DNA from: Gemmatimonadota bacterium
Lineage (GTDB): Bacteria; Gemmatimonadota; Gemmatimonadetes; Gemmatimonadales; Gemmatimonadaceae
Reading direction: 5' to 3'
Length of the DNA: 35,914 bases
Assembly (NCBI GenBank): GCA_003171215.1
Contig: PMYN01000150.1
Coordinates: 1 to 35,914 of the forward strand
Numbering within the stretch: the stretch's first letter is position 1; each line of letters starts with the position of its first letter. Under the pieces are notes generated by a model, which saw only the letters and a list, made by a program, of their open reading frames with translations, was not told the DNA's origin and searched no databases. The translations under genes and the position numbers were made by a program. This document shows positions 18,792-29,163 of this stretch, one piece after another.

Positions 18792-18810
18792 CCGTTTCGC
18801 GAAGTGCGGA

Positions 18811-18857
18811 GACGAAAGCGGCCTCGCATCGGAACTCCGTGCGAGGCCGCCTTCGTT
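18811..18857. terminator. Bidirectional terminator between convergent genes
   Basis: The 11-bp perfect stem GCGGCCTCGCA 18818-18828 with TGCGAGGCCGC 18840-18850 extends outward through ACGAA/TTCGT after one mismatch. It lies between the CocE stop and the small lipoprotein stop. There is no long T tract on either side. Confidence 0.7.
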
Positions 18858-18860
18858 CGC

Positions 18861-19181
18861 TTACTGCTCCGAGGGCGGCAGCTTGTCGGAGTGCGCGCTC
18901 TTGCCACGCGAGTAGCGGGCCTCGAGAGCCTGTCTCTCGGATGCCTGTCGCGAGTCCCTCTGGTTGCTCGATTCGTCGGATCGCGGGCTGGCGATTTCCT
19001 GGTTATGCCGCGCGATCATTTCGTCGTGCGCGCGACCGTAGTCCCGGTCGAGCGGCCCGGAGTCCCACCGCACGGAGATTTCAGCGCCGCTTTGCGACTG
19101 CCTGCCATATGGGGCGCACGCGGCGAGCGACGCGAGTGTCGTGAGGGTGATCAGGGTCTTCAGGTGGCGGTGAACACGCAT
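18861..19181 (-). CDS. Small lipoprotein, paralogue of the protein at 28774
   Basis: A 106-residue predicted lipoprotein (MRVHRHLKTLITLTTLASLAACAPYG, lipobox LAAC). The mature part is polar, rich in Arg, Glu, Ser and Gln, and probably helical. It contains VRWDSGPLDRDY, then RHNQEIASPRSDESSNQRDSRQ, and EARYSRGKSAH near the end. These blocks recur in order in the protein at 28774, so the two define a small family that I do not recognise. The start is supported by a GGGAGGCCTCC purine-rich site just before the ATG, also conserved in the paralogue. It lies downstream of, and on the same strand as, the lipoprotein operon ending at 19368, 186 nt away. It may be read through from that operon or have its own promoter in the conserved upstream segment. 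Confidence 0.8.
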   Translation of the reverse strand: MRVHRHLKTLITLTTLASLAACAPYGRQSQSGAEISVRWDSGPLDRDYGRAHDEMIARHNQEIASPRSDESSNQRDSRQASERQALEARYSRGKSAHSDKLPPSEQ

Positions 19182-19290
19182 GGAGGCCTCCCGGCCGAGA
19201 GTGTGGAGTCACGCGCGTCTCGGTGAGTCCGTATTGAGCGTGCGCCATCACTATGCTCGAGGCTATCGGGTTCGACCATGTCGGACAATC
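19182..19290 (-). promoter_or_regulatory. Upstream segment duplicated with the small lipoprotein gene
   Basis: About 110 nt before the start codon aligns with 29164-29285 before the paralogue. Shared blocks include CTCGGTGAGTCCGT / GCGGTGAGTCCGT, GAGCGTGCGCCATCACT / GGGCGTGAGCCATCACT, CTCGAGGCTA / ATCGAGGCTA and a final ACAATCGCTCG / GCAATCGCTCG. Conservation outside the coding region suggests a shared promoter or operator. The exact boxes are not clear to me. Confidence 0.5.
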
Positions 19291-19367
19291 GCTCGTTGTG
19301 CCTAGTCTCATCGGCACACCATCCGCCGCCCCCGCCGCGCAGGCGAGGGCGACTACCAGTAGCATGG

Positions 19368-20093
19368 TCAGCGCACCGTGACTTGAAGAGAGTCGAGCAG
19401 CGAGTCCCGCGTCGCCACGATCCACGTCGATCCCGATTTGCGCGCGATCACCGTGGCCGCGCGAATGCCGACGGGCGAGACACTCGCGACCGTCGTGTCG
19501 CGCGTGACGAACGTCGCGACGGGCGTTCCGGTGGCGGGGTTCGCGGTGCCGCTGGTCAACGCGTAGATCTTCTGGTTGAGAGCGTCGAGGCCGTCGACCC
19601 ACACGGACCACGCTCCGCCCGCCGACAGGGTATCACACGCGTGCGTGTCGGGACAGCGGAGCTGAATGTGCGTAACTCGCTGCGTGAACACCACGTTCTT
19701 GTAGCCTTGGTGGCGCCAGATGTTTGTTTGAATGATGTTGGTGGTGGTGGAGTTCCCCGCGAACGCGGTGTCGATAGCGCCGATGACCGCCTGTACCGCA
19801 CCTGTGTAGGTCTCCGGCCAGAGCGGCGGAGTCGCGTTGGCGATCGTAAATGTGCGACCGGACGTCAGGTTGCTGCCGGATCCCCAATGGATGGCAGAGT
19901 CCGGAAAAGACGGGAGGGTTTGGGCACTGTAGGTTGCGTGCTCATAGGAGCTGAAGAGCGTATCGGGACCCGAGACGGTGATCGTGACGGGGAACGCCGG
20001 ATCGTACGGATTCGTGTGCTGGTACGGGTCGCCGCAGCCGAAGAACGCCACGAGGAGCGTGGCGCCGAGCACGCCTGCGATGCGTCGGCTCAC
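19368..20093 (-). CDS. Ig-like lipoprotein A (third of three tandem paralogues)
   Basis: A 241-residue predicted lipoprotein, the last gene of the sigma/FecR operon. The start is GTG 20093 (VSRRIAGVLGATLLVAFFGC), sharing one base with the stop of paralogue B (TAGTG). The lipobox is AFFGC, followed by GDPYQHTNPYDPAFPVTITVSGPD. The centre is unique to this copy (GNSTTTNIIQTNIWRHQGYKNVVF). The C-terminal part is shared with B and C: LRCPDTHACD with a CX5C cysteine pair, GAWSVWVDGLDALNQKIYALTSG, then a strand-rich end, RDTTVASVSPVGIRAATVIARKSGSTWIVATRD-type, cut here to its recognisable BIG_2-like pattern of D..VASVS..G..T..G...I.A. Probably anchored to the outer or inner membrane facing the periplasm or surface. 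Function unknown. Confidence 0.8.
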   Translation of the reverse strand: MSRRIAGVLGATLLVAFFGCGDPYQHTNPYDPAFPVTITVSGPDTLFSSYEHATYSAQTLPSFPDSAIHWGSGSNLTSGRTFTIANATPPLWPETYTGAVQAVIGAIDTAFAGNSTTTNIIQTNIWRHQGYKNVVFTQRVTHIQLRCPDTHACDTLSAGGAWSVWVDGLDALNQKIYALTSGTANPATGTPVATFVTRDTTVASVSPVGIRAATVIARKSGSTWIVATRDSLLDSLQVTVR

Positions 20094-20842
20094 TATCGCA
20101 CGACGAGTTGCAACGAATCGAGGAGCACGTCCCTCGTCGCTACGATCCACGTCGTTCCGGTCTTCCTCGCGGTCACCGTAGCTGCGCGAATGCCGACGGG
20201 CGAGATACTCGCGACCGTCGTGTCGCGAGAGACGAAGGTCGCGACGGGCGTTCCGGTAAGCGGATTCGTCGTCGCAGCCGTGAGGGCCACGATCTCATGG
20301 TTCAGCGCGTCGAAACCGTCGACCCACACCGACCACGCACCGCCGACCGGGAGCGCATCGCACGCGTTCGTATCGGGGCAGCGGAGCAGAATGCGCACCA
20401 CCCGCTGGGTCAGGACCACCATTTTGGATCCGACATGGCGGTACCAGTGGGTTCTGATGGTGACGATGCAGGCGCATGCGTTGTTCCACTGTGAATACGT
20501 GGTATCGATGGCGCCGATCCCGGCGAACACCGTGACGGTCTTCGTCGCCGGCCAGAGCGGCGGTGGAATTGTCGGGCCTGCCTCGAACGATGCAGCACCT
20601 GCGGGCATGAACGACAAGCTGTCCGACGAGTCGAACTTCACGGCCGTGTCCGGAAAAGCGGGCACGATCACGGCGCCGAAGTATGCTATTTCCGCGTAGC
20701 TGAAAAGTGAATCCGGGCCCGTGACCGTGACCGAAACGGCGTGCGCCGGATCGTACGGATTCAGGTGCAGGTACGGGTCGCCGCACGCGAAGAACGCCAC
20801 GAGGAGCGTGGCGCCGAGCAGGCCGGCCAGTCTTCGGGCCAC
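20093..20842 (-). CDS. Ig-like lipoprotein B (second of three tandem paralogues)
   Basis: A 249-residue predicted lipoprotein. The start is GTG 20842 (VARRLAGLLGATLLVAFFAC), overlapping the TAG of paralogue C by one base, with no recognisable Shine-Dalgarno in the preceding coding sequence. The mature protein begins CGDPYLHLNPYDPAHAV. The central part is specific to this copy and holds extra cysteines (QWNNACACIVTIRTHWYRHVG). The end is nearly identical to C at nucleotide level over the last 150 nt or so and carries the CX5C pair in LRCPDTNACD and the BIG_2-like C-terminus. The frame is open much further upstream, into gene C, but that stretch is antigenic-looking Arg/His-rich shadow coding and is rejected. 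Confidence 0.8.
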   Translation of the reverse strand: MARRLAGLLGATLLVAFFACGDPYLHLNPYDPAHAVSVTVTGPDSLFSYAEIAYFGAVIVPAFPDTAVKFDSSDSLSFMPAGAASFEAGPTIPPPLWPATKTVTVFAGIGAIDTTYSQWNNACACIVTIRTHWYRHVGSKMVVLTQRVVRILLRCPDTNACDALPVGGAWSVWVDGFDALNHEIVALTAATTNPLTGTPVATFVSRDTTVASISPVGIRAATVTARKTGTTWIVATRDVLLDSLQLVVR

Positions 20843-21630
20843 TAGCGCACGACGAGTTGCAACGAATCGAGGAGCACGTCCCGCGTGGCCACGATCCACG
20901 TCGTTCCGGTCTTCCTCGCGGTCACGGTGGCTGCGCGAATACCGACGGGCGAGACGCTCGCGACTGTCGTGTCGCGCGAGACGAACGTCGCTATGGGCGT
21001 TCCGGTGGCGGGGTTCGCAGTGCCGCTGGTCAACGCGTAGATCTTCTGGTTGAGCGCGTCGAAGCCGTCGACCCACACCGACCACGCATCGCCGGCCGAG
21101 AGCGGATCGCACGCGTGCGTATCGGGGCAGCGGAGCAGAATGCGCACCATCCGCTGCGTGATGACCACCGTCTTGGATCCAATGTGCCGCCAGGCCGTAT
21201 CCATGGGCGCCCGACCGCCTGGCAGTCCGGCGTCCGATCGGAGGGTGTCGAAGGCGCCGATCCCGGCGGTCACCGTGACCGTCCTCGTCGCGGGCCAGAG
21301 CGGTGGTCCTACCCGAGGCCCCGCCTCGAACGTGCCGGAACCCACCAGCTGGAACTGGCCATTGTCGGAAGACGAAAACTGCACGGCGGTATCCGGGAAA
21401 GCGGGCACGATCTGGGCGGTGAAATGCGCCTGTTCCGTGTAGCTGAACACCGAATCCGGGCCCAGCACGGTGATCGTGACGGGCACTGTCGGATCGTATG
21501 GATTGGTGTGCAGGTATGGGTCGCCGCACGCGAACGACGCCACGAGAATCACGGTTGCAAGCACCGAGACGAACCGCCGTTCCGAGAGGGACGGCCGTCG
21601 AGCGCGCGCATTCAGGTTGGTCGGCGTCAC
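20842..21630 (-). CDS. Ig-like lipoprotein C (first of three tandem paralogues)
   Basis: A 262-residue predicted lipoprotein. The start is GTG 21630, overlapping the stop of the DUF5683-like gene by 4 nt (GTGA). The N-region is longer than in A and B (MTPTNLNARARRPSLSERR), followed by a hydrophobic segment VSVLATVILVASFAC with the lipid-attachment Cys. The mature start CGDPYLHTNPYDPTVPVTITVLGPDSVFS is the family signature. The centre differs from A and B (RSDAGLPGGRAPMDTAWRHIG). The end has LRCPDTHACD (CX5C) and the BIG_2-like domain. The longer N-region and lead position suggest C may be the ancestral copy, with B and A derived by tandem duplication; that is inference. Confidence 0.8.
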   Translation of the reverse strand: MTPTNLNARARRPSLSERRFVSVLATVILVASFACGDPYLHTNPYDPTVPVTITVLGPDSVFSYTEQAHFTAQIVPAFPDTAVQFSSSDNGQFQLVGSGTFEAGPRVGPPLWPATRTVTVTAGIGAFDTLRSDAGLPGGRAPMDTAWRHIGSKTVVITQRMVRILLRCPDTHACDPLSAGDAWSVWVDGFDALNQKIYALTSGTANPATGTPIATFVSRDTTVASVSPVGIRAATVTARKTGTTWIVATRDVLLDSLQLVVR

Positions 21631-23282
21631 CGGAACTCGAATCTCAATCCGCCGGCGAGTCCCGGCCCACTTCCGCCCGGTCCGGTCGGCGCCGTGATGA
21701 TGGGCCGGAACCAGAACTCGTGCACCGCCGCCAACCGGGACGCGTGAACTCTCTCCTGCCATTCGGCCTCGATGGCCGCCGCGAGCCAGAGCGCCACGGT
21801 CGCGGTCGCGACGGTGCTCGCGTTGTTGCGCTGGCTGACCGCCGTCGTGAAGAAGCGCGGCGCGATGCCCGAGCGCTCCGCCTGATAGCGGGCGTACCAG
21901 CTGTTCGCCGACTGCAGGAAGCTGTACGAGGTGAACGCGAGCGTCGCCGTGAGGGCGCCGGTCGAGAGCCCGATGAGGTGCGACCACGTCTTGTACTGGC
22001 CGTAGCCCGGGATCAGGATGCCGCGCAGGAATGTCGCGCCGGGACGGTACGCGAAGCACCGCACGCCGCCTCGCGTGTGGTCCAGCAGCGCGCCCGCCGC
22101 GCGCATGCCCGTGTATGCCTGGTTCCCCACGGCCGCGCCGCCGGGATTCTCGCCGCCGCTGAGCGCGCACGGATCCAGCGCGGTCAGTTCGTTCGCGACG
22201 AGCGCCGCGGAGGGCAGATCGTCGTCCGCCTGGAACGTGCTCGCCATCGACATGAGCGCGATGCGCCGGTCGTTCACGGAAATCTTGTCGTCGGTCAGCC
22301 GTTCCAGGAATATCCCCGTGGCCTCCGCGTCGCGGCCTTCGCCCTGTCGGCGAAGCGCCGTCCTGAGCCCGGTGTCGGACGGCGCCGGCACCCGGACGAT
22401 CACTCGACGCGCCGAGGCGGGCGCCGCGCTCGTCGCCTTGTCGCGCGTGGCCAGCCGCTCCGCACGCCAGTGCAGGTACTCCCACCACACGGTGTGCAGG
22501 ATGTTGCTCGGCAGCGGGATGTGATCCGGCTCGCCGCCGGCCTTCGTCCAGATCATCAACTCGACCTGCGGCATGTCGCCCGTGGCCATAGGCGCGATCG
22601 CGTCGTACGGGATGTACAGGCGGAGCTGGCTGGTGTTCTGCTGCGGCACGCCGCCGCGGCTCATGACCATCACCGGTGCGGTCGCGAGCATCGTCGCCTT
22701 CACGATGCGCAGGCGCGAGATGAGCACCGCGCTCACCGGGTCGCGGGTGGGATCGTACGCGAACTCCGTCACGAAGCGCATGCCGCGCCGGATCATCGCA
22801 GGGCGGCCCAGGTTCTTGAAGCCGCACTCGGTGAAGTTGCGCAACACCGGCATGATCGAGATCACGAGCACCGGCCGGTCGTCCACGATCGAATCGAACG
22901 GGGCCCACGGACGCGCCACGGCGAAGCGCGCGCTGTCCGCCGCCGAGATGTTCAGCGGCCTGCGGCAGTTCGCGAGCGTGGTGTCGATGATGCGGCTCGA
23001 GTCCATCGCGTCCATCGCCCGCGGCGTGCCCATGAGAAAGTCCCAGTCGCCGGCCCGCATCGTCCACGCCGCGGGCGTCTTGTCATGGCGCGGAATCGGG
23101 ATGCGCCGCCATTTGCCGAAGCCCGAATCGGCGGGATCGGGTGGCGTGCGCAGGAACGGCACGCTCGACGGCACGGGTGGAAAAACGGAGGTGTCGGCCA
23201 CCTGCGCAGGCAGCGCGACAGAAGACGACGCGAGCACCAGCGTCCCCGCCAGCGCGTGGAGGAATTGCATGCGGCGGGTCAT
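21627..23282 (-). CDS. Secreted protein with DUF5683-like C-terminal region
   Basis: A 551-residue exported protein (signal MTRRMQFLHALAGTLVLASSSVALPAQ). The body begins VADTSVFPPVPSSVPF and KWRRIPIPRHDK, which is the segment duplicated exactly at 27266-27449. The middle has VDDRPVLVISIMPVLRNF and WWEYLHWRAERLA and no family I know. Around residues 420-480, LRGILIPGYGQYKTWSHLIGL and two short hydrophobic stretches resemble the DUF5683 pattern PG.GQ.y....; the last residues (GLAGGLRFEFR) end in an aromatic residue then Arg, as outer-membrane strands often do. The start ATG 23282 overlaps the STN gene's stop by 4 nt (ATGA) and its stop overlaps gene C by 4 nt. Probably an envelope component of the sigma/FecR system. 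Confidence 0.78.
   Translation of the reverse strand: MTRRMQFLHALAGTLVLASSSVALPAQVADTSVFPPVPSSVPFLRTPPDPADSGFGKWRRIPIPRHDKTPAAWTMRAGDWDFLMGTPRAMDAMDSSRIIDTTLANCRRPLNISAADSARFAVARPWAPFDSIVDDRPVLVISIMPVLRNFTECGFKNLGRPAMIRRGMRFVTEFAYDPTRDPVSAVLISRLRIVKATMLATAPVMVMSRGGVPQQNTSQLRLYIPYDAIAPMATGDMPQVELMIWTKAGGEPDHIPLPSNILHTVWWEYLHWRAERLATRDKATSAAPASARRVIVRVPAPSDTGLRTALRRQGEGRDAEATGIFLERLTDDKISVNDRRIALMSMASTFQADDDLPSAALVANELTALDPCALSGGENPGGAAVGNQAYTGMRAAGALLDHTRGGVRCFAYRPGATFLRGILIPGYGQYKTWSHLIGLSTGALTATLAFTSYSFLQSANSWYARYQAERSGIAPRFFTTAVSQRNNASTVATATVALWLAAAIEAEWQERVHASRLAAVHEFWFRPIITAPTGPGGSGPGLAGGLRFEFR
23024..23207. repeat. 184-bp perfect duplication, copy 1 (inside the DUF5683-like gene)
   Basis: I read this as identical base for base to 27266-27449, in the same orientation and reading frame. 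It covers 61 codons just after the signal peptide, from QVADTSVF to FLMGT. The flanking sequence diverges immediately on both sides. Confidence 0.92.
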
Positions 23283-25393
23283 GGGAGTCTCGCGCCCACA
23301 TGCGAGGGAAGCACCGCCTCGATCACGTCGATGGTCGTCGCCCGCGTGAGCTGCACTGCCGTGGAACTCTCGTCGCCGTCGGGTCCGCGGACACGCACTT
23401 CCAGCGTCGACGTCGCGTCGCCGGGCCTCGCACAGATCATGAAGCGTCCTTCGGCGTTCGAGCGCCGCAGCACGCCCTCGACTCGCTCGCCGGGGCCAAG
23501 GAGCGGATTGGAGACATCGTAGACCGCGAGCTGTGCATCGGCCACGGGCGCGCCATCGCGGCTGACGGTCCCGACGATCGCGTGCCGGTCGGTGCCGCAG
23601 CGCTGGCGGACGATCTCCCCCGGCGTCTTGAGCGAGACTCCCGCGCTCGTCACCACGCCGGTCGCCACGCGCACGACGACGATGGCCGGCGGCTCGAGCA
23701 ACAGGGCGTTGGTCCGGGTGTTCACGGCGACCTGATACTCGCCCTCAGTGAGACGGTCGAACGTCGCGGTGCCCGTTTCGTCGCTCATGCGCTGGCGGCG
23801 CGAGCCGATCAGCATCACTTCTGCTCCGTGGACGGGCACACGAACGCCGTCCTCGCGCTGGCCGTCGGTGACGTGAACGAAAATGGCCCCCGTGGGTGCC
23901 GTCCACAGCGCCGTGCTGTCCGCGCTCGCCGGTTCCCGATACGCGGAGAGGACGTTGCCGCGCTGCTCGTTCAGGCCGCCCGCGCTCCACCTGAACGACC
24001 GGCGATCCGTTCCTTCCACCTGCTCGCTGAAGAGGCGGAGCTGGTCCTCGACGCGCATCGCGCGGCCCGCGACGAGAGCGGGAATGGGCGCGCGTATCGT
24101 CCACGAAGCGATGAACCAGTCCTGCGCGCTGAGCTTCGCGAAGTTCACCGTGGACACTCCCGTCGAGTCGTCGAGCGCAAACGGCAGGCCGGTGTAGCGA
24201 AAGGTCAGCCGCCTCAGTTCGTGCGACACGGTGTCGACCCAGAACGTCCCGGCAATGTCTGTGTGGTTCTGCAGCGTGCTCGCGGGCGCGAACGACAGGC
24301 CGACCATCGGGCCATCATGGAGGAGGCCCGGTTGGAAACAGTGCGTGTTCTCGAACGTCCGCGAGAGGAGCACGTCGAGGTCGGGCGACGCGAACGTCAG
24401 CCGGTCGTCGGCGAACCTCACGTAGCCCCGACGCGAGAGGATGTCGGGCGAGAGGCTGGTCCACGGCTGCTGCGCGGTCAGCGTCCGCTCGAGCACGACG
24501 ATGTCGCGCATCGCCATCCGCGGGGTGTCGTAGATCCGCTTTACCTGGACGAGCGTGAATCGGCTTCGCTGCTCCGAGTACGTGATCGACGTTGCTATCA
24601 GCGCCGTGCGAACGTCCTCCCAGAGATTCCACGCGGTCTCGGCCGTGGCGCTCTGCCTGTGGCACGCGGACATGGCCGTGGACAACACCATGGGGAGCGT
24701 CACGGCCGGGAGCTCGTCGAGCGCGATCACGCCCGTCGTGTCGCGGCGAAGCCAGAACGGGGCGCTCTCGAACGGCCGCACGCCGATGCGCTGAACTCGC
24801 AGGCTCACGAGCCCGGCATCCATGGTGCGGAGCACGAAGCGGCCGTGCTCATCCGACCGCGCCTTCGCCTGAATCGTTCGCGACGTGTCGATTAGGGTGA
24901 CGATCGCTGCCGCGACCGGCGCACCCCGCGCGGCCGTGCGCAGCGTGCCGTGGAAGTACCGCGCCGCGGCCGGCACCCTTCGTACGAGGATCAGATTCTC
25001 GTTCTTCGCGACCGCGATGTCGACGCCCGCGCCGGCGAGGACTTCGAGCAGTGCCGCGGCGACCGTCATGGAGTCCGGTCGGGTGCGCACCACACCGGCG
25101 GCGGCCAGCAGGTCCTCCGCGTATATGAAGTGGACGTTCGCGGCGAGGCCGATCGCCTGCAGCGCGGCGGCGCGACTCATCTCGCCACCGTTGAGCGCGA
25201 TCCTGCGGCTCAGCAAGGGAAGCTCGGAAGGCTCAATGGCCACGGGATCACGCGAGGCTTCGGCCGACACGCGCACGAAGCGAGGGCCCTGTTCCGCCAT
25301 GCCCGTCGTCAGCGTTTGCGCCGCCGCGAGCATCGGACGCACGGCAAGGATCACCGCCGCAACGATGAGCCTCCACGCGCGCGTCGCGCTCAC
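23279..25393 (-). CDS. Exported STN / carboxypeptidase-regulatory-like protein without TonB barrel
   Basis: A 704-residue protein with a signal peptide (MSATRAWRLIVAAVILAVRPMLAAAQ). Residues about 62-140 form an STN domain (RRIALNGGEMSRAAALQAIGL, later LLEVLAGAGVDIAV and LILVRR), the periplasmic signalling module of FecA-type receptors and secretins. Residues 146-210 are a carboxypeptidase-regulatory-like Ig domain (FHGTLRTAARGAPVAAAIVTL, DEHGRFVLRT, VQRIGVRPF). The middle (to about 520) has strand-rich FWVDTVSHELRRLTFRYTG. Two further Ig-like pieces follow (AEVMLIGSRRQRMSDETG near 550 and IVGTVSRDGAPVADAQLAVY near 640). There is no plug or 22-strand barrel, so it is not a transporter. The start is GTG 25393 overlapping the FecR stop (GTGA). 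By analogy with FecA the STN would contact FecR; that is inference. Confidence 0.85.
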   Translation of the reverse strand: MSATRAWRLIVAAVILAVRPMLAAAQTLTTGMAEQGPRFVRVSAEASRDPVAIEPSELPLLSRRIALNGGEMSRAAALQAIGLAANVHFIYAEDLLAAAGVVRTRPDSMTVAAALLEVLAGAGVDIAVAKNENLILVRRVPAAARYFHGTLRTAARGAPVAAAIVTLIDTSRTIQAKARSDEHGRFVLRTMDAGLVSLRVQRIGVRPFESAPFWLRRDTTGVIALDELPAVTLPMVLSTAMSACHRQSATAETAWNLWEDVRTALIATSITYSEQRSRFTLVQVKRIYDTPRMAMRDIVVLERTLTAQQPWTSLSPDILSRRGYVRFADDRLTFASPDLDVLLSRTFENTHCFQPGLLHDGPMVGLSFAPASTLQNHTDIAGTFWVDTVSHELRRLTFRYTGLPFALDDSTGVSTVNFAKLSAQDWFIASWTIRAPIPALVAGRAMRVEDQLRLFSEQVEGTDRRSFRWSAGGLNEQRGNVLSAYREPASADSTALWTAPTGAIFVHVTDGQREDGVRVPVHGAEVMLIGSRRQRMSDETGTATFDRLTEGEYQVAVNTRTNALLLEPPAIVVVRVATGVVTSAGVSLKTPGEIVRQRCGTDRHAIVGTVSRDGAPVADAQLAVYDVSNPLLGPGERVEGVLRRSNAEGRFMICARPGDATSTLEVRVRGPDGDESSTAVQLTRATTIDVIEAVLPSHVGARLP

Positions 25394-26304
25394 CGGGTCC
25401 TCAACGTAATCACTCGTCCGTCGCGCGCTACGACCGCATCCGTCGCTACGGCAAGCGCATCGATCATCTCCGCCGGCGCCTGCGGCGAGAAATCGGCGGT
25501 CACGCGGCGGCCCTTGAGGCGCGCGTCCTCGACGCGCACATCGAGATCGTACCAGCGTCCGATCGTGCGCAGCACCTCTTCCAGCGGACGGTCTGTGAAC
25601 GAGAGTCGGCCGTTCGCCCAGGCCAGATATCCCGCCACGCTCGCGGGACGCTCGCTCGAGACTCTGCCTAATCTATCGACGCGTCCGACGCCCCCTCGCT
25701 CGAGGACGATCGCCGGACCGGCGCGCGCGGCGACAGACGGGGAGTGGGAACGCGCCGCCGTCATCGACACCGATCCTTCGGCGACGGCGACCGTCACGTT
25801 CGTGTCGCTCGCGTAGGCGCTCAGATCGAACCGGGTTCCGATGTCCTCGATCAGCACGCCGCGCGCGCGTACGCGCAACGGATGCGCAGCATCGTGATGC
25901 ACCGTGAAGATCGCCTCGCCGTCGAGCGAGATCTCACGATCGCCCTCGGCGAAACGCGGGGCGACCGTCAAGCGGCTCTCCGGCGCAAGCGTCACCTCGC
26001 TGCCGTCGGGGAGCCGGATAGTCGAGTACTGTGCGCGGGAGGTGCTGTACTGACCCGGCCCTGCCCCGAGTGAGGAGGCGCCGGGCACATCGCCGCGCCG
26101 GATCAGCGCGACGGCCGCCCCCGTCACGACGAGCGCCGCGCCTGCGGCGTATGCCACGTTCCGCCATCGCGAACGTACCGCGCGCTCCATCTCGTGGCCG
26201 AACGAGCCAGTCTCGGGAGCCGTGCGGGATCTCACGCGCTCCCACGCCGCGTCCACGTCCCACGACTCGTGTGGAAATTCCGGGAGGTCGTCGATCGGGG
26301 TCAT
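25390..26304 (-). CDS. FecR-family anti-sigma factor with DUF4974
   Basis: A 304-residue inner-membrane regulator. There is a short cytoplasmic N-region (SWDVDAAWERVRSR, the likely sigma-binding helix) and one transmembrane helix at about residues 50-68 (VAYAAGAALVVTGAAVALI). The periplasmic FecR domain spans about 86-180, with STIRLPDGSEVTLAPESRL, REISLDGEAIFTVHHDAAHPLRV, IEDIGTRFDLSAY and VTVAVAEGSVSM. The C-terminal DUF4974 domain runs from about 235 (LSFTDRPLEEVLRTIGRWYDLDV), a fold related to STN. It would hold the ECF sigma factor until signalled from the periplasm. It starts 36 nt after the sigma gene and overlaps the STN gene by 4 nt. A hairpin straddling the sigma stop precedes it. 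Confidence 0.93.
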   Translation of the reverse strand: MTPIDDLPEFPHESWDVDAAWERVRSRTAPETGSFGHEMERAVRSRWRNVAYAAGAALVVTGAAVALIRRGDVPGASSLGAGPGQYSTSRAQYSTIRLPDGSEVTLAPESRLTVAPRFAEGDREISLDGEAIFTVHHDAAHPLRVRARGVLIEDIGTRFDLSAYASDTNVTVAVAEGSVSMTAARSHSPSVAARAGPAIVLERGGVGRVDRLGRVSSERPASVAGYLAWANGRLSFTDRPLEEVLRTIGRWYDLDVRVEDARLKGRRVTADFSPQAPAEMIDALAVATDAVVARDGRVITLRTR

Positions 26305-26323
26305 ACTGCAACTACACTGTAGC

Positions 26324-26360
26324 GCCGAAAACCCCCTAGTTCAGCTCATAAGCCAGGGGG
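26324..26360 (-). promoter_or_regulatory. Possible attenuator hairpin at the sigma/anti-sigma junction
   Basis: Read on the minus strand, CCCCCT (26360-26355) pairs with AGGGGG (26337-26332) across a 17-nt loop containing the sigma stop codon, and TTTT follows directly. The stem is only 6 bp, so it would be a weak terminator at best. It could lower anti-sigma and downstream expression relative to sigma. Confidence 0.35.
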
Positions 26361-26934
26361 CGAGCGCGGCACGCAGGATCCCTATTGCTCTCGTCATGTG
26401 GATCTCGACGGTCTTGGGCGAGATGCCCATCACGTGTGCGGTGTCCGCGTAGCTCAGGTGCTGCAGCCGCACGAGCGTGAAAGCCTCCCGGCAGCGCGGT
26501 GTCATCAGGGCGACGGTGCGCGCGGCTACAGCGGAGAGTTCGGCCTCCGAGACCAGAGCATCGGCCGGTTCCGCCCGGCGCTCCGATCTCGCATCGAGCG
26601 CGTATCTCTTATGCGCGGAGAGCTCCAGGCGGCGATCCCGGATCACGTTCAGCGACCGGTTTCGCACGGCCGTGAACAGCCAGAGTCGCACGCCACACGG
26701 CATATCGAGCGTGAATCGCCGGTCCCAGATCCAGCAGAAGAGATCCTGCACGATCTCCTCGGCCGTCTCATGGCTGCGCACGTACGAATGCGCGAAGTCG
26801 CACAGCGGCGCGTAGTGGGCGCGGAATATGTGCTCGAACGCCTTCGGGTCACCCACTCGCAGCTGCTCAAGCGACTCAAGCTCGGCGCGGTCGCGTTCCG
26901 AGGTCGAAGCGGAGAGGACCCTCGCGCGCACCAT
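26341..26934 (-). CDS. ECF RNA polymerase sigma factor (FecI/Bacteroides-expansion-like)
   Basis: A 197-residue sigma-70 family protein. Region 2 is AFEHIFRAHYAPLCDFAHSYV with ETAEEIVQDLFCWIWDRR (about residues 32-73) and RLWLFTAVRNRSLNVIRDRR, the core-binding and -10 recognition helices. Region 4 is LMTPRCREAFTLVRLQHLSYADTAHVMG-type, ending with ISPKTVEIHMTRAIGILR (about 143-187), the -35 recognition helix-turn-helix. There is no extra C-terminal domain. It is the first gene of the seven-gene operon and is paired with the FecR gene, so it is very likely controlled by envelope signals and probably activates its own operon. I see no clear Shine-Dalgarno at ATG 26934; the upstream 302 nt hold a GTGACGTCAC palindrome. 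Confidence 0.93.
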   Translation of the reverse strand: MVRARVLSASTSERDRAELESLEQLRVGDPKAFEHIFRAHYAPLCDFAHSYVRSHETAEEIVQDLFCWIWDRRFTLDMPCGVRLWLFTAVRNRSLNVIRDRRLELSAHKRYALDARSERRAEPADALVSEAELSAVAARTVALMTPRCREAFTLVRLQHLSYADTAHVMGISPKTVEIHMTRAIGILRAALAPWLMS

Positions 26935-27236
26935 GCGATCAAACTGGCGCCACTCCGGTGCCGCGTCAATGACTGGTCAGCGCGGGAGAAGTGGATCGAT
27001 GTCCCGTTCTCCGAACTCGGCGCCGCCGCGAGACGAAGCGAACGAGGCGGCGCCGTTCCCTGAGCGTGGAGCCGACTCGATGCGCACACCGTGACGTCAC
27101 CACTCCGATTCCGGGGAAGACGCCCTCTTGGGAAAAGTGGCGAAGTAGTGCTACAACTCATCTCATGAACCTCCCCGCCAATTCGCGGCGAGGGCGCGCG
27201 ACCAGGTGAGCTAGATGTAGATGATCAGGACGTTGT
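26935..27236 (-). promoter_or_regulatory. Leader/promoter region of the sigma-FecR operon
   Basis: 302 nt without a gene, between the truncated copy (stop at 27237) and the sigma start. The only striking element is a perfect 10-bp palindrome GTGACGTCAC at 27091-27100, a possible operator. I could not identify a convincing -35/-10 or ECF-type promoter by eye. Several open frames here are GC-driven and lack coding character. Confidence 0.4.
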
Positions 27237-27503
27237 TCACAGGATCGCGACGAGCTTCTGCCGGCGCGTGCCCATGAGAAAGTCCCAGTCGCCGGCCCGC
27301 ATCGTCCACGCCGCGGGCGTCTTGTCATGGCGCGGAATCGGGATGCGCCGCCATTTGCCGAAGCCCGAATCGGCGGGATCGGGTGGCGTGCGCAGGAACG
27401 GCACGCTCGACGGCACGGGTGGAAAAACGGAGGTGTCGGCCACCTGCGCCTTGAGCGCACCAGCTGCGACGGCGAGCACGACGGGGATCATGCACCGACG
27501 CAT
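27237..27503 (-). pseudogene. Truncated paralogue of the DUF5683-like gene (88 codons)
   Basis: A short gene with its own signal peptide (MRRCMIPVVLAVAAGALKAQ), which differs from that of the full-length gene at 23282. Codons 20-80 or so are identical at nucleotide level to the full gene (the 184-bp duplication). It then ends in eight unrelated residues (RRQKLVAIL) and a TGA. AGGAG sits 6 nt before ATG 27503, so it may be translated as a small secreted protein. Two readings are possible: a 3'-truncated pseudogene, or a deliberate short form sharing the N-terminal module. The perfect identity beside unrelated signal sequences points to recent recombination or gene conversion. Confidence 0.75.
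27266..27449. repeat. 184-bp perfect duplication, copy 2 (inside the truncated gene)
   Basis: Same orientation as 23024-23207. The two copies bracket the DUF5683-like gene's start, the STN gene, FecR and sigma, about 4.2 kb, so recombination between them could delete or multiply the regulatory genes. Confidence 0.92.
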
Positions 27504-27578
27504 GAAGGCTCCTGGCTGGTGGGGACGCCAGCGCGAAATCGAGTTACCGGACTCGTGCCGTCTGCTTTCTACAGCGTT

Positions 27579-28145
27579 CTACTTGTTGTTGATCAGCTTG
27601 AGCACCATGTCTCCGATCTTCTTCTCGAGCTCGCCTTTCGTGGAGCACGGCGTGAGGTCACGGTTCGAGCCATCCGTCGGGTTTCCCAGCGCCTGAATCC
27701 GAGTGAAGATCTGCGCACCGCCGCCCTGACCGGGCTGCACGTAACTCAGGAGATTCATGTGGATGTCCCACGTCTCGGCGTTCGGGGTTCCCATCTTGTC
27801 TCCGCAATCCAGCACGTTCTGCATCGGCATTCCCGCAATGCGGCGCCGAATCTTGATCTCGTCGTTCCCGACCGCGCGCTTGACGTCCACCGGCGCGACG
27901 GGAATCTCGAGCATTGTGTAGACGCGCGACAGGACCTGATACGCGGAGTCCGGCGACACGGAAACGGACGTGGCGATCGCCGTATACATGTTGGTCGTCC
28001 CGATGTTCATCGTGCTCATGCTCGAACTGCCCACCACGAGGCTCGTGGTGGATGGCGTCACGGTCGTCTCCGGACCTCCGGATGTCGAGCTGGCACAGGC
28101 TGTTCCGAGCACGAGAAGCAGCACGGACGGCCGAAGGTGACGCAT
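27579..28145 (-). CDS. Predicted lipoprotein of unknown function
   Basis: A 188-residue lipoprotein (MRHLRPSVLLLVLGTACASS, lipobox LGTAC). After a Ser/Thr-rich linker (SSTSGGPETTVTPSTTSLVV) comes a compact domain: NMYTAIATSVSVSPDSAYQVLSRVYTMLEIPV, then KIRRRIAGMPMQNVLDCGDKMG and AETWDIHMNLLSYV, ending KGELEKKIGDMVLKLI. Two cysteines in LDCGDK and LTPCSTKG may pair. I do not recognise the family. ATG 28145 is preceded by GGAG at 8 nt, better than the GTG at 28154. It lies upstream of the truncated DUF5683-like gene on the same strand (75 nt gap) and may be co-transcribed with it. Confidence 0.78.
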   Translation of the reverse strand: MRHLRPSVLLLVLGTACASSTSGGPETTVTPSTTSLVVGSSSMSTMNIGTTNMYTAIATSVSVSPDSAYQVLSRVYTMLEIPVAPVDVKRAVGNDEIKIRRRIAGMPMQNVLDCGDKMGTPNAETWDIHMNLLSYVQPGQGGGAQIFTRIQALGNPTDGSNRDLTPCSTKGELEKKIGDMVLKLINNK

Positions 28146-28344
28146 GGCTAACACTCCGATGGAGGGGATTATTTCTGGTACGCCGCGCGCCTACGCAGGT
28201 TCCAAATAGTCACTCAAAGAAGGGTGAGAAGCAATGCAACCTATGGTAGCTTCCTGTGTATTCCAATTCGCCTCGGCACGCCGCGAAGCATCGGCCGACC
28301 AGCAGCCCGCCCCCGCCCACAGCCGGACTCCCAGAGGTTCGATC

Positions 28345-28755
28345 ATGCGTGTTGCTCTTGCTCTTGCTGTTGTGGTTGTCTCGTCGATGCTCGCCGGCTG
28401 CTCGAAGTCCGCCACCACGACTGCCCCGGTCATCACGGCCGCCTTCACCGTCGCAGGCCCTTGGAGCGGATGCATCCGGGAGCCTGGAGCTTCGTGCTCG
28501 CCAGCCTCGATGACGCTGGCGGACTCATCCCTGACGGACTCTTCCGCAACCGTGACGGGCACCGGAAACTGGGGTGCGACCGTCACGATTCGCGGGAAGA
28601 TCGTCAACTCCAACGTCAGTCTCGACGCCACCACCGTCGGCGTGCTGCAAGGGTGGAGCTTTTCAGGAGTCCTTTCCGGCAATTCCCTTGCCGGAAACCT
28701 GACCATACCGGGAAACGCCTCGAGTTTTCCGGCGACGTTCACGCGATTACCGTAA
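28345..28755 (+). CDS. Small predicted lipoprotein
   Basis: A 136-residue lipoprotein (MRVALALAVVVVSSMLAGCSKS, lipobox LAGC). The mature part is a small all-beta protein: FTVAGPWSGCIREPG, SATVTGTGNWGATVTIRGKIV, VSLDATTVGVLQGWSFSGVLSG and NSLAGNLTIPGNASSFPATF. The alternating GTxxG and G.l.GN.l.G patterns resemble small lipocalin-like beta sheets that appear as repeats of a hydrophobic strand and a glycine turn; no family is assigned. ATG 28345 follows AGAGG at about 9 nt and is where the signal starts. It is convergent with the small lipoprotein at 28774, with only 18 nt between stops. Confidence 0.75.
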   Translation: MRVALALAVVVVSSMLAGCSKSATTTAPVITAAFTVAGPWSGCIREPGASCSPASMTLADSSLTDSSATVTGTGNWGATVTIRGKIVNSNVSLDATTVGVLQGWSFSGVLSGNSLAGNLTIPGNASSFPATFTRLP

Positions 28756-28773
28756 GGTGCTGACTTCGCGCGC

Positions 28774-29163
28774 CTACCGTTCCGCGGGCGGCATGGTCCG
28801 GGAGTGCGCGGTTTTTCCTCTCGTATAGCGAAGCTCGAGCGCCTTACTCTCCGTCTGGTGCCGCTGGTCCCGCTGATTCGACGATTCGCCCGAACGCGGG
28901 CTGGCGACTTCCCGAGCGTGACGTTCATCCATATCCTTGCGTTCGCGCTGATACGCGAGGTCCAGCGGCCCGGAGTCCCATCGCAGGTTGATGTCGACGG
29001 CCGGGGCCGGCTCAGGAGCCGGGGCGGCGACGACGGGCGCCGCGGCCGGGGGCGCGGCAGGGGGCGCGGCATCGGGCTGGGCGTTCGACGACGCACCAGG
29101 TGAACTGCACGCGGCGAGTGTCGCGAGAATTGTCAGGAACTGCATGGAGCGGTAGGCGCGCAT
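28774..29163 (-). CDS. Small lipoprotein, paralogue of the protein at 18861
   Basis: A 129-residue lipoprotein (MRAYRSMQFLTILATLAACSS, lipobox LAAC). Compared with the copy at 18861 it has an extra Ala/Pro-rich linker after the lipid-attachment site (DAAPPAAPPAAAPVVAAPAPE), then the shared core: LRWDSGPLDLAYQRERKDM, HAREVASPRSGESSNQRD, ALELRYTRGKTAHS and PPAER. Conservation across both copies is strongest in ASPRS.ESSNQRD and RGK.AHS. A GGGAGGG site lies just before ATG 29163. The preceding 120 nt align with the region before the other copy. The core is highly polar; role unknown. Confidence 0.8.
   Translation of the reverse strand: MRAYRSMQFLTILATLAACSSPGASSNAQPDAAPPAAPPAAAPVVAAPAPEPAPAVDINLRWDSGPLDLAYQRERKDMDERHAREVASPRSGESSNQRDQRHQTESKALELRYTRGKTAHSRTMPPAER

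Follow-up and report, generated by a model that had tools for sequence, protein, structure and literature searches.

In cell-surface signalling of the FecIRA type, the STN domain of a transducer binds FecR-type anti-sigma factors at their periplasmic domain (PMC11637429). Overproduction of this signalling domain in the Fox system of Pseudomonas aeruginosa and the Iut system of Pseudomonas putida keeps the anti-sigma factor from being proteolysed and prevents signalling (PMC11637429), and the periplasmic FecA signalling domain, when added, inhibits induction (PMC9249621). A natural STN protein without a β-barrel has been described in VreA, a mostly soluble protein whose gene belongs to a sigma/anti-sigma operon (PMC2729926; PMC4971064). 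In our literature search, no paper used the phrase ‘STN and carboxypeptidase regulatory-like’ for a named barrel-less system. Here, we analyse a barrel-less STN protein encoded in a 35,914-nt stretch of DNA (the window; positions 1 to 35,914 of contig PMYN01000150.1, forward strand) from a Gemmatimonadota bacterium, the source being a single metagenome-assembled genome (MAG; GCA_003171215.1) with an assembly of 162 contigs. Its gene is the third in a run of seven, preceded by those for an extracytoplasmic function (ECF) sigma factor and a FecR-type anti-sigma factor and followed by those for a secreted DUF5683-like protein and three putative lipoproteins (Table 1). We think it moderately probable that the locus is a FecIRA operon whose transducer was replaced by a fusion protein, that it was then inserted into the DUF5683-like locus and that it signals without transport.

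The barrel-less STN protein

An earlier sequence-only reading of the window had described seven same-strand genes with overlaps of 1–4 nt at every junction after sigma–FecR, a FecR with a DUF4974 domain, and an STN plus carboxypeptidase-regulatory protein without a barrel, and had inferred a surface-signalling or envelope-assembly system by comparison with FecIRA. The described parts were borne out by our analysis. All seven open reading frames (ORFs) lie on the minus strand, and the junctions 3′ of FecR overlap by 4, 4, 4, 1 and 1 nt, in this order, with a gap of 36 nt between sigma factor and FecR. The sigma factor matches TIGR02985 in NCBIfam (1.8e-40; 138.8 bits versus a cut-off of 126.4), and FecR matches the Pfam families PF04773 (3e-17) and PF16344 (FecR_C, formerly DUF4974; 7e-10), above cut-off. 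Sigma factor, FecR and STN domain share their best match in a single operon, located on contig C124 of a genome of the same genus (G002; 49%, 51% and 40%, respectively), the third gene of which encodes a 1,371-aa STN–CarboxypepD_reg–OMP_b-brl_4 receptor. In a survey of FecR loci in 23 related genomes and a few more, from which genes cut by contig ends were left out, the third gene of the other sigma–FecR–STN loci was always receptor-sized (~840–1,490 aa, stop to stop). The family matches and the relatives of the STN domain support the assignment of sigma factor, FecR and STN protein to a FecIRA-type surface-signalling set. As a side observation, another genome of the same family (G024) holds 30 FecR matches, mostly in sigma–FecR–STN receptor loci, an expansion that resembles that of Bacteroidota.

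The STN protein of the window is composed of a signal peptide (judged by eye), an STN domain (residues ~45–138), a transthyretin (TTR)-like CarboxypepD_reg domain (145–225; PF13620 in Pfam), a ‘mid’ domain (248–490), a second TTR-like domain (500–591) and a β-sandwich tail (600–698). Its own STN domain is too diverged for a Pfam match; PF07660 is matched by 19 of the 23 members of an alignment that joins the window protein with 22 relatives, and the profile of this alignment finds the N0 domain of PilQ and the signalling domains of PupA, FemA, FpvA and FecA in the PDB. No TonB plug or barrel was matched in the protein by Pfam, the ORF stops at 704 aa, and an AlphaFold2 (AF2) model built from 32 sequences, with a predicted local distance difference test (pLDDT) score of 85, contains no barrel and shows the mid domain as a helix-plus-sheet structure. 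A structural search with this model, which tested chiefly the TTR-like domains, matched them to carboxypeptidase D and to the N-terminal extension of a SusC. Judging from its strand order, the mid domain may have a LolA/RseB-like fold; Pfam and PDB profile searches with it gave nothing.

The two parts of the protein have different relatives. Residues 21–147 match the TonB transducer of G002 with 88.6 bits and 40% identity, versus 22 bits for the best protein of a secreted family that we term Cpd-mid-tail; from residue 140 onward, the best matches belong to this family. By sequence comparison, the STN protein is a fusion, with residues ~1–145 stemming from the STN region of a TonB transducer, the barrel of which was lost, and residues ~145–704 from the separate secreted family. 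The window protein retains each of the 12 residues that are invariant in the mid domain, two cysteines among them, which suggests that the grafted Cpd-mid-tail part folds. We examined 19 Cpd-mid-tail proteins, each within a stretch of 4–14 kb, and none has an STN domain or an adjacent sigma or FecR gene. A full-length orthologue of the fusion was found neither in 179 family genomes nor in 395 phylum genomes, the best matches beginning at residues 131–154; the search for further fusions covered this one phylum. Some Cpd-mid-tail proteins (L049, L050; G030, G008) end in a TonB plug (PF07715) within the same ORF, without a barrel.

The inserted block and its target locus

A second MAG of the same genus (Gemmatimonadaceae MAG Chersky.15_25; G010) provides the syntenic locus without the sigma factor, FecR and STN genes. 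Its contig C98 carries, in order, a small secreted protein, a 200-aa lipoprotein-like gene, an intact DUF5683-like gene and a lipoprotein. The flanks of the two loci are ~94–95% identical at the nucleotide level on both sides, and a block of 4,058 bp in the window has no counterpart at this locus of G010. In the window, we found an exact direct repeat of 184 bp, one copy adjoining each end of this block, and a truncated DUF5683-like copy, both of which are absent from the sequence-only reading. Since the two repeat copies show no differences between them and 6 of 184 positions differ from the single copy of G010, the duplication postdates the divergence from G010, barring gene conversion. The truncated ORF upstream of the sigma gene carries the signal peptide of the G010 gene (MRRCMIPVVLAVAAGALKAQ); the intact window gene, which shares 4 nt with the STN gene, has a different signal peptide (residues 1–27) that is supplied by the insert. 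A stretch of 60 bp at the outer insert end is 83% identical to the 3′ end of a transposase gene on contig C245 of genome G017, which matches PF13683 (rve_3; 6e-15); we take this remnant to be IS481-like. Searches for a donor of the insert gave only scattered weak DNA matches. Taken together, these comparisons identify the sigma–FecR–STN block as an insertion into the DUF5683-like gene that took place after the split from G010.

An ordinary transposon target duplication was considered and rejected, as 184 bp is too long and no inverted repeats of at least 30 bp were present. DDE transposases make target duplications of a few bases.

Table 1 Coordinates of the operon, the inserted block and adjacent features in the window
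Feature	Coordinates	Strand	Support
Tandem lipoprotein paralogue a, 241 aa	19368..20093	-	
Tandem lipoprotein paralogue b, 249 aa	20093..20842	-	
Tandem lipoprotein paralogue c (CGDPY..NPYDP motif), 262 aa	20842..21630	-	
DUF5683-like secreted protein, 551 aa	21627..23282	-	97% to G010
Direct repeat copy 2, 184 bp, within the intact DUF5683-like gene	23024..23207	-	
Inserted block, 4,058 bp: transposase remnant, sigma, FecR, STN gene, new signal peptide	23208..27265	-	
Chimeric barrel-less receptor (STN protein), 704 aa	23279..25393	-	Pfam, profiles, AF2 model
FecR-type anti-sigma factor, transmembrane segment and FecR_C (DUF4974), 304 aa	25390..26304	-	Pfam; 51% to G002 FecR
ECF sigma factor (TIGR02985 / FecI-like), 197 aa	26341..26934	-	NCBIfam; 49% to G002 sigma
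Transposase remnant (rve_3): final codons and 3′ flank, outer insert end	27205..27264	-	
Truncated 5′ copy of the DUF5683-like gene, 88 aa, original signal peptide	27237..27503	-	
Direct repeat copy 1, 184 bp; 5′ part of the interrupted DUF5683-like gene	27266..27449	-	
Upstream lipoprotein-like gene, 188 aa	27579..28145	-	in G010, immediately precedes the DUF5683-like gene

Two names that the sequence-only reading had given to the downstream genes found no support. Membership of the DUF5683-like protein in DUF5683 (PF18935) was rejected, since the window protein and five homologues have no Pfam match and hhalign aligns only ~20 residues around a P-F-PGxGQ motif; a scan of genome G000 yielded DUF5683 matches elsewhere and none at this locus. 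For the lipoproteins, described as Ig-like, Pfam gave no match to such a fold, and the AF2 model (pLDDT 44) was too poor for a structure search. The three tandem paralogues are 64–71% identical, and all copies have an invariant Cys after a hydrophobic segment, with F, S or A at position −3, which is not canonical for a lipobox. A search for the DUF5683-like protein among genome contigs returned G010 as the only match; identity to G010 is 97% for this protein and 87% for a lipoprotein. Between the window and G010, the ratio of non-synonymous to synonymous substitution rates (dN/dS) of the DUF5683-like gene is 0.085, indicating strong purifying selection (0.077 for a housekeeping neighbour), and that of the lipoproteins is 0.56 and 0.77, indicating much weaker constraint. 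The lipoprotein array evolves fast and coincides with contig ends in G010.

More distant homologues of the DUF5683-like protein (25–31% identity) occur in genus g47, where all 12 are directly followed by a lipoprotein homologue and none of the 12 loci has a sigma, FecR, STN or mid protein beside the pair. Because the pair is kept in this form, we regard the DUF5683-like gene and its lipoprotein, on the evidence of these loci, as an older unit of its own. The g47 secreted family (L146–L157) comprises frames of ~525–690 aa with PGxGQ near the C terminus and no Pfam family; its members are invariably paired with a lipoprotein that has a CxxxPYxxxNPYDP-like N terminus.

Further features surround the operon. 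Next to the upstream lipoprotein-like gene, positions 28204–28769 form a second stretch of the window unmatched in the G010 contig, which includes a plus-strand ORF of 173 aa with a weak bacterial Ig match. Two paralogous small secreted proteins with an ASPRS-ESSNQRD motif (18861–19181 and 28774–29163, both minus strand; DNA ~71% identical) flank the whole operon ~10 kb apart, and G010 has both. Rfam gave no match within 18800–28300.

Proposed explanation and its alternatives

In the explanation we favour, an ancestral FecIRA-type operon of sigma factor, FecR and TonB-dependent transducer would have undergone an in-frame fusion of the STN domain to a secreted TTR-like Cpd-mid-tail protein, with loss of plug and barrel. 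The sigma–FecR–STN block would then have entered the 5′ end of the DUF5683-like gene after the G010 split, leaving the truncated copy upstream and providing the intact copy with its signal peptide and its overlap with the STN gene, whereby the DUF5683-like gene and the lipoproteins would have joined the sigma operon. Once exported to the periplasm, the STN protein would bind FecR_C through its STN domain and prevent the proteolysis of FecR. This contact may change when the TTR-like and mid domains sense a ligand or a state of the envelope, upon which FecR would be degraded, the sigma factor released and the operon transcribed, including the DUF5683-like gene and the lipoproteins. We infer the STN–FecR contact, the direction of control, the autoregulation of the sigma factor and the ligand; by analogy, the mechanism would most likely be transport-free cell-surface signalling like that of P. 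aeruginosa VreA. The lipoproteins may have a role as well: as the sequence-only reading proposed, the STN protein may sense through them or through its DUF5683-like partner, in which case the association would be very recent. More tentatively, an envelope-lipoprotein locus may have been captured very recently, in one lineage, by an operon with a domain-replaced periplasmic sensor, the captured proteins being its output or its input.

Several observations weigh against this explanation. Deletion of vreA left the regulon of P. aeruginosa unchanged under phosphate starvation (PMC4971064), so an STN protein that lacks a barrel is not necessarily the sensor. The fusion has no orthologue in the searched genomes from which selection on it could be measured, and it could be non-functional. 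Finally, the exact 184-bp repeat would also allow another reading, with the chromosomal locus intact and a separate circle of 4,242 bp.

Among the alternatives, a functional seven-gene unit, in which the STN protein would report to FecR what it senses of the lipoproteins or the DUF5683-like protein at the envelope, survives best, and even this we judge unlikely. It would fit the 1–4 nt overlaps, which couple all genes after FecR, a scan in which promoters and terminators inside the operon did not exceed chance level, and the strong constraint on the DUF5683-like gene. However, the DUF5683-like/lipoprotein pair exists without sigma factor, FecR and STN protein in G010 and in the 12 distant loci, which argues for an older function of its own, and the linkage of the two parts is younger than the G010 split. 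The gene order was conserved in no relative searched, an outcome that the sequence-only reading had itself named beforehand as refuting its seven-gene system. Judged by its sequence, the locus is a recent chimera and not a conserved seven-gene operon.

It is improbable that the insertion is dead or a passenger, a broken receptor fusion that came in next to the remnant of a mobile element, while a new signal peptide acquired by chance saved the gene downstream. The transposase remnant at the outer end, the truncated gene copy and the uniqueness of the fusion among the genomes searched would agree with such an origin, but the reading frames of sigma factor, FecR and the 704-codon fusion are uninterrupted and retain conserved domain residues, their GC content at third codon positions is ordinary (0.81–0.87), and the DUF5683-like gene is intact and in frame.

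We consider an assembly artefact very improbable. The chromosome would then be G010-like, with sigma, FecR and STN genes elsewhere or on a small circle, and the assembler would have crossed the 184-bp repeat; the exactness of this repeat and the source, one MAG in 162 contigs that is larger than its genus mates, are in keeping with this. Against it, the junctions of the new signal peptide with the repeat and of the repeat with the transposase remnant are non-repetitive and must therefore stem from reads, and a 4,242-bp circle without a replication gene is unlikely. The STN fusion, being internal to the block, would be unaffected in any case. A reverse polarity, with the order in the window as the ancestral state and a loss of the sigma–FecR–STN block from G010 by recombination between the 184-bp repeats, would yield exactly the G010 structure but is the most improbable of all, as the copies are identical where about 6 differences in 184 are expected (Poisson chance of 0 = 0.0025, although gene conversion could mask this) and the block is missing beside the pair in 12 outgroup loci.

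Comparison with described systems

Barrel-less STN receptors are already known from VreA, and natural examples of signalling uncoupled from transport are few. What the present locus adds can be read from its sequence: the swap boundary (~residue 145), both parent families, and the later insertion together with the empty site of the sister genome. It thereby offers a testable case of how rewiring gives a sigma/anti-sigma pair a different sensor and another target locus.

One of the closest described systems is PUMA3 (VreA/VreI/VreR), which likewise combines a sigma/anti-sigma pair with an STN protein that has a signal peptide and no β-barrel in one operon. VreA, however, is a 23 kDa protein with a TolA/TonB-like C-terminal domain and a gene order of A-I-R, whereas the window has the order I-R-A and a protein of 704 aa, in which two TTR-like domains, the mid domain and the β-sandwich make up the C-terminal part and the TolA/TonB-like domain is absent. 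With FecIRA and the operon of G002, the locus shares a TIGR02985 sigma factor, FecR and a third gene with STN and CarboxypepD_reg domains; it differs in having a Cpd-mid-tail protein in place of plug and barrel. The Gemmatimonadota Cpd-mid-tail proteins (‘carboxypeptidase regulatory-like’) resemble it over residues ~140–690 with ~25–36% identity and share the 12 mid-domain residues, whereas those examined have neither an STN domain nor a sigma/FecR neighbour, and in two a TonB plug forms the C-terminal end. Lastly, the TTR-like domain after STN resembles the N-terminal extension of the Bacteroidota SusC protein BT3090 (Z 11.4; root-mean-square deviation 2.8; 80 aligned), but in the window protein this domain is not followed by a SusC barrel.

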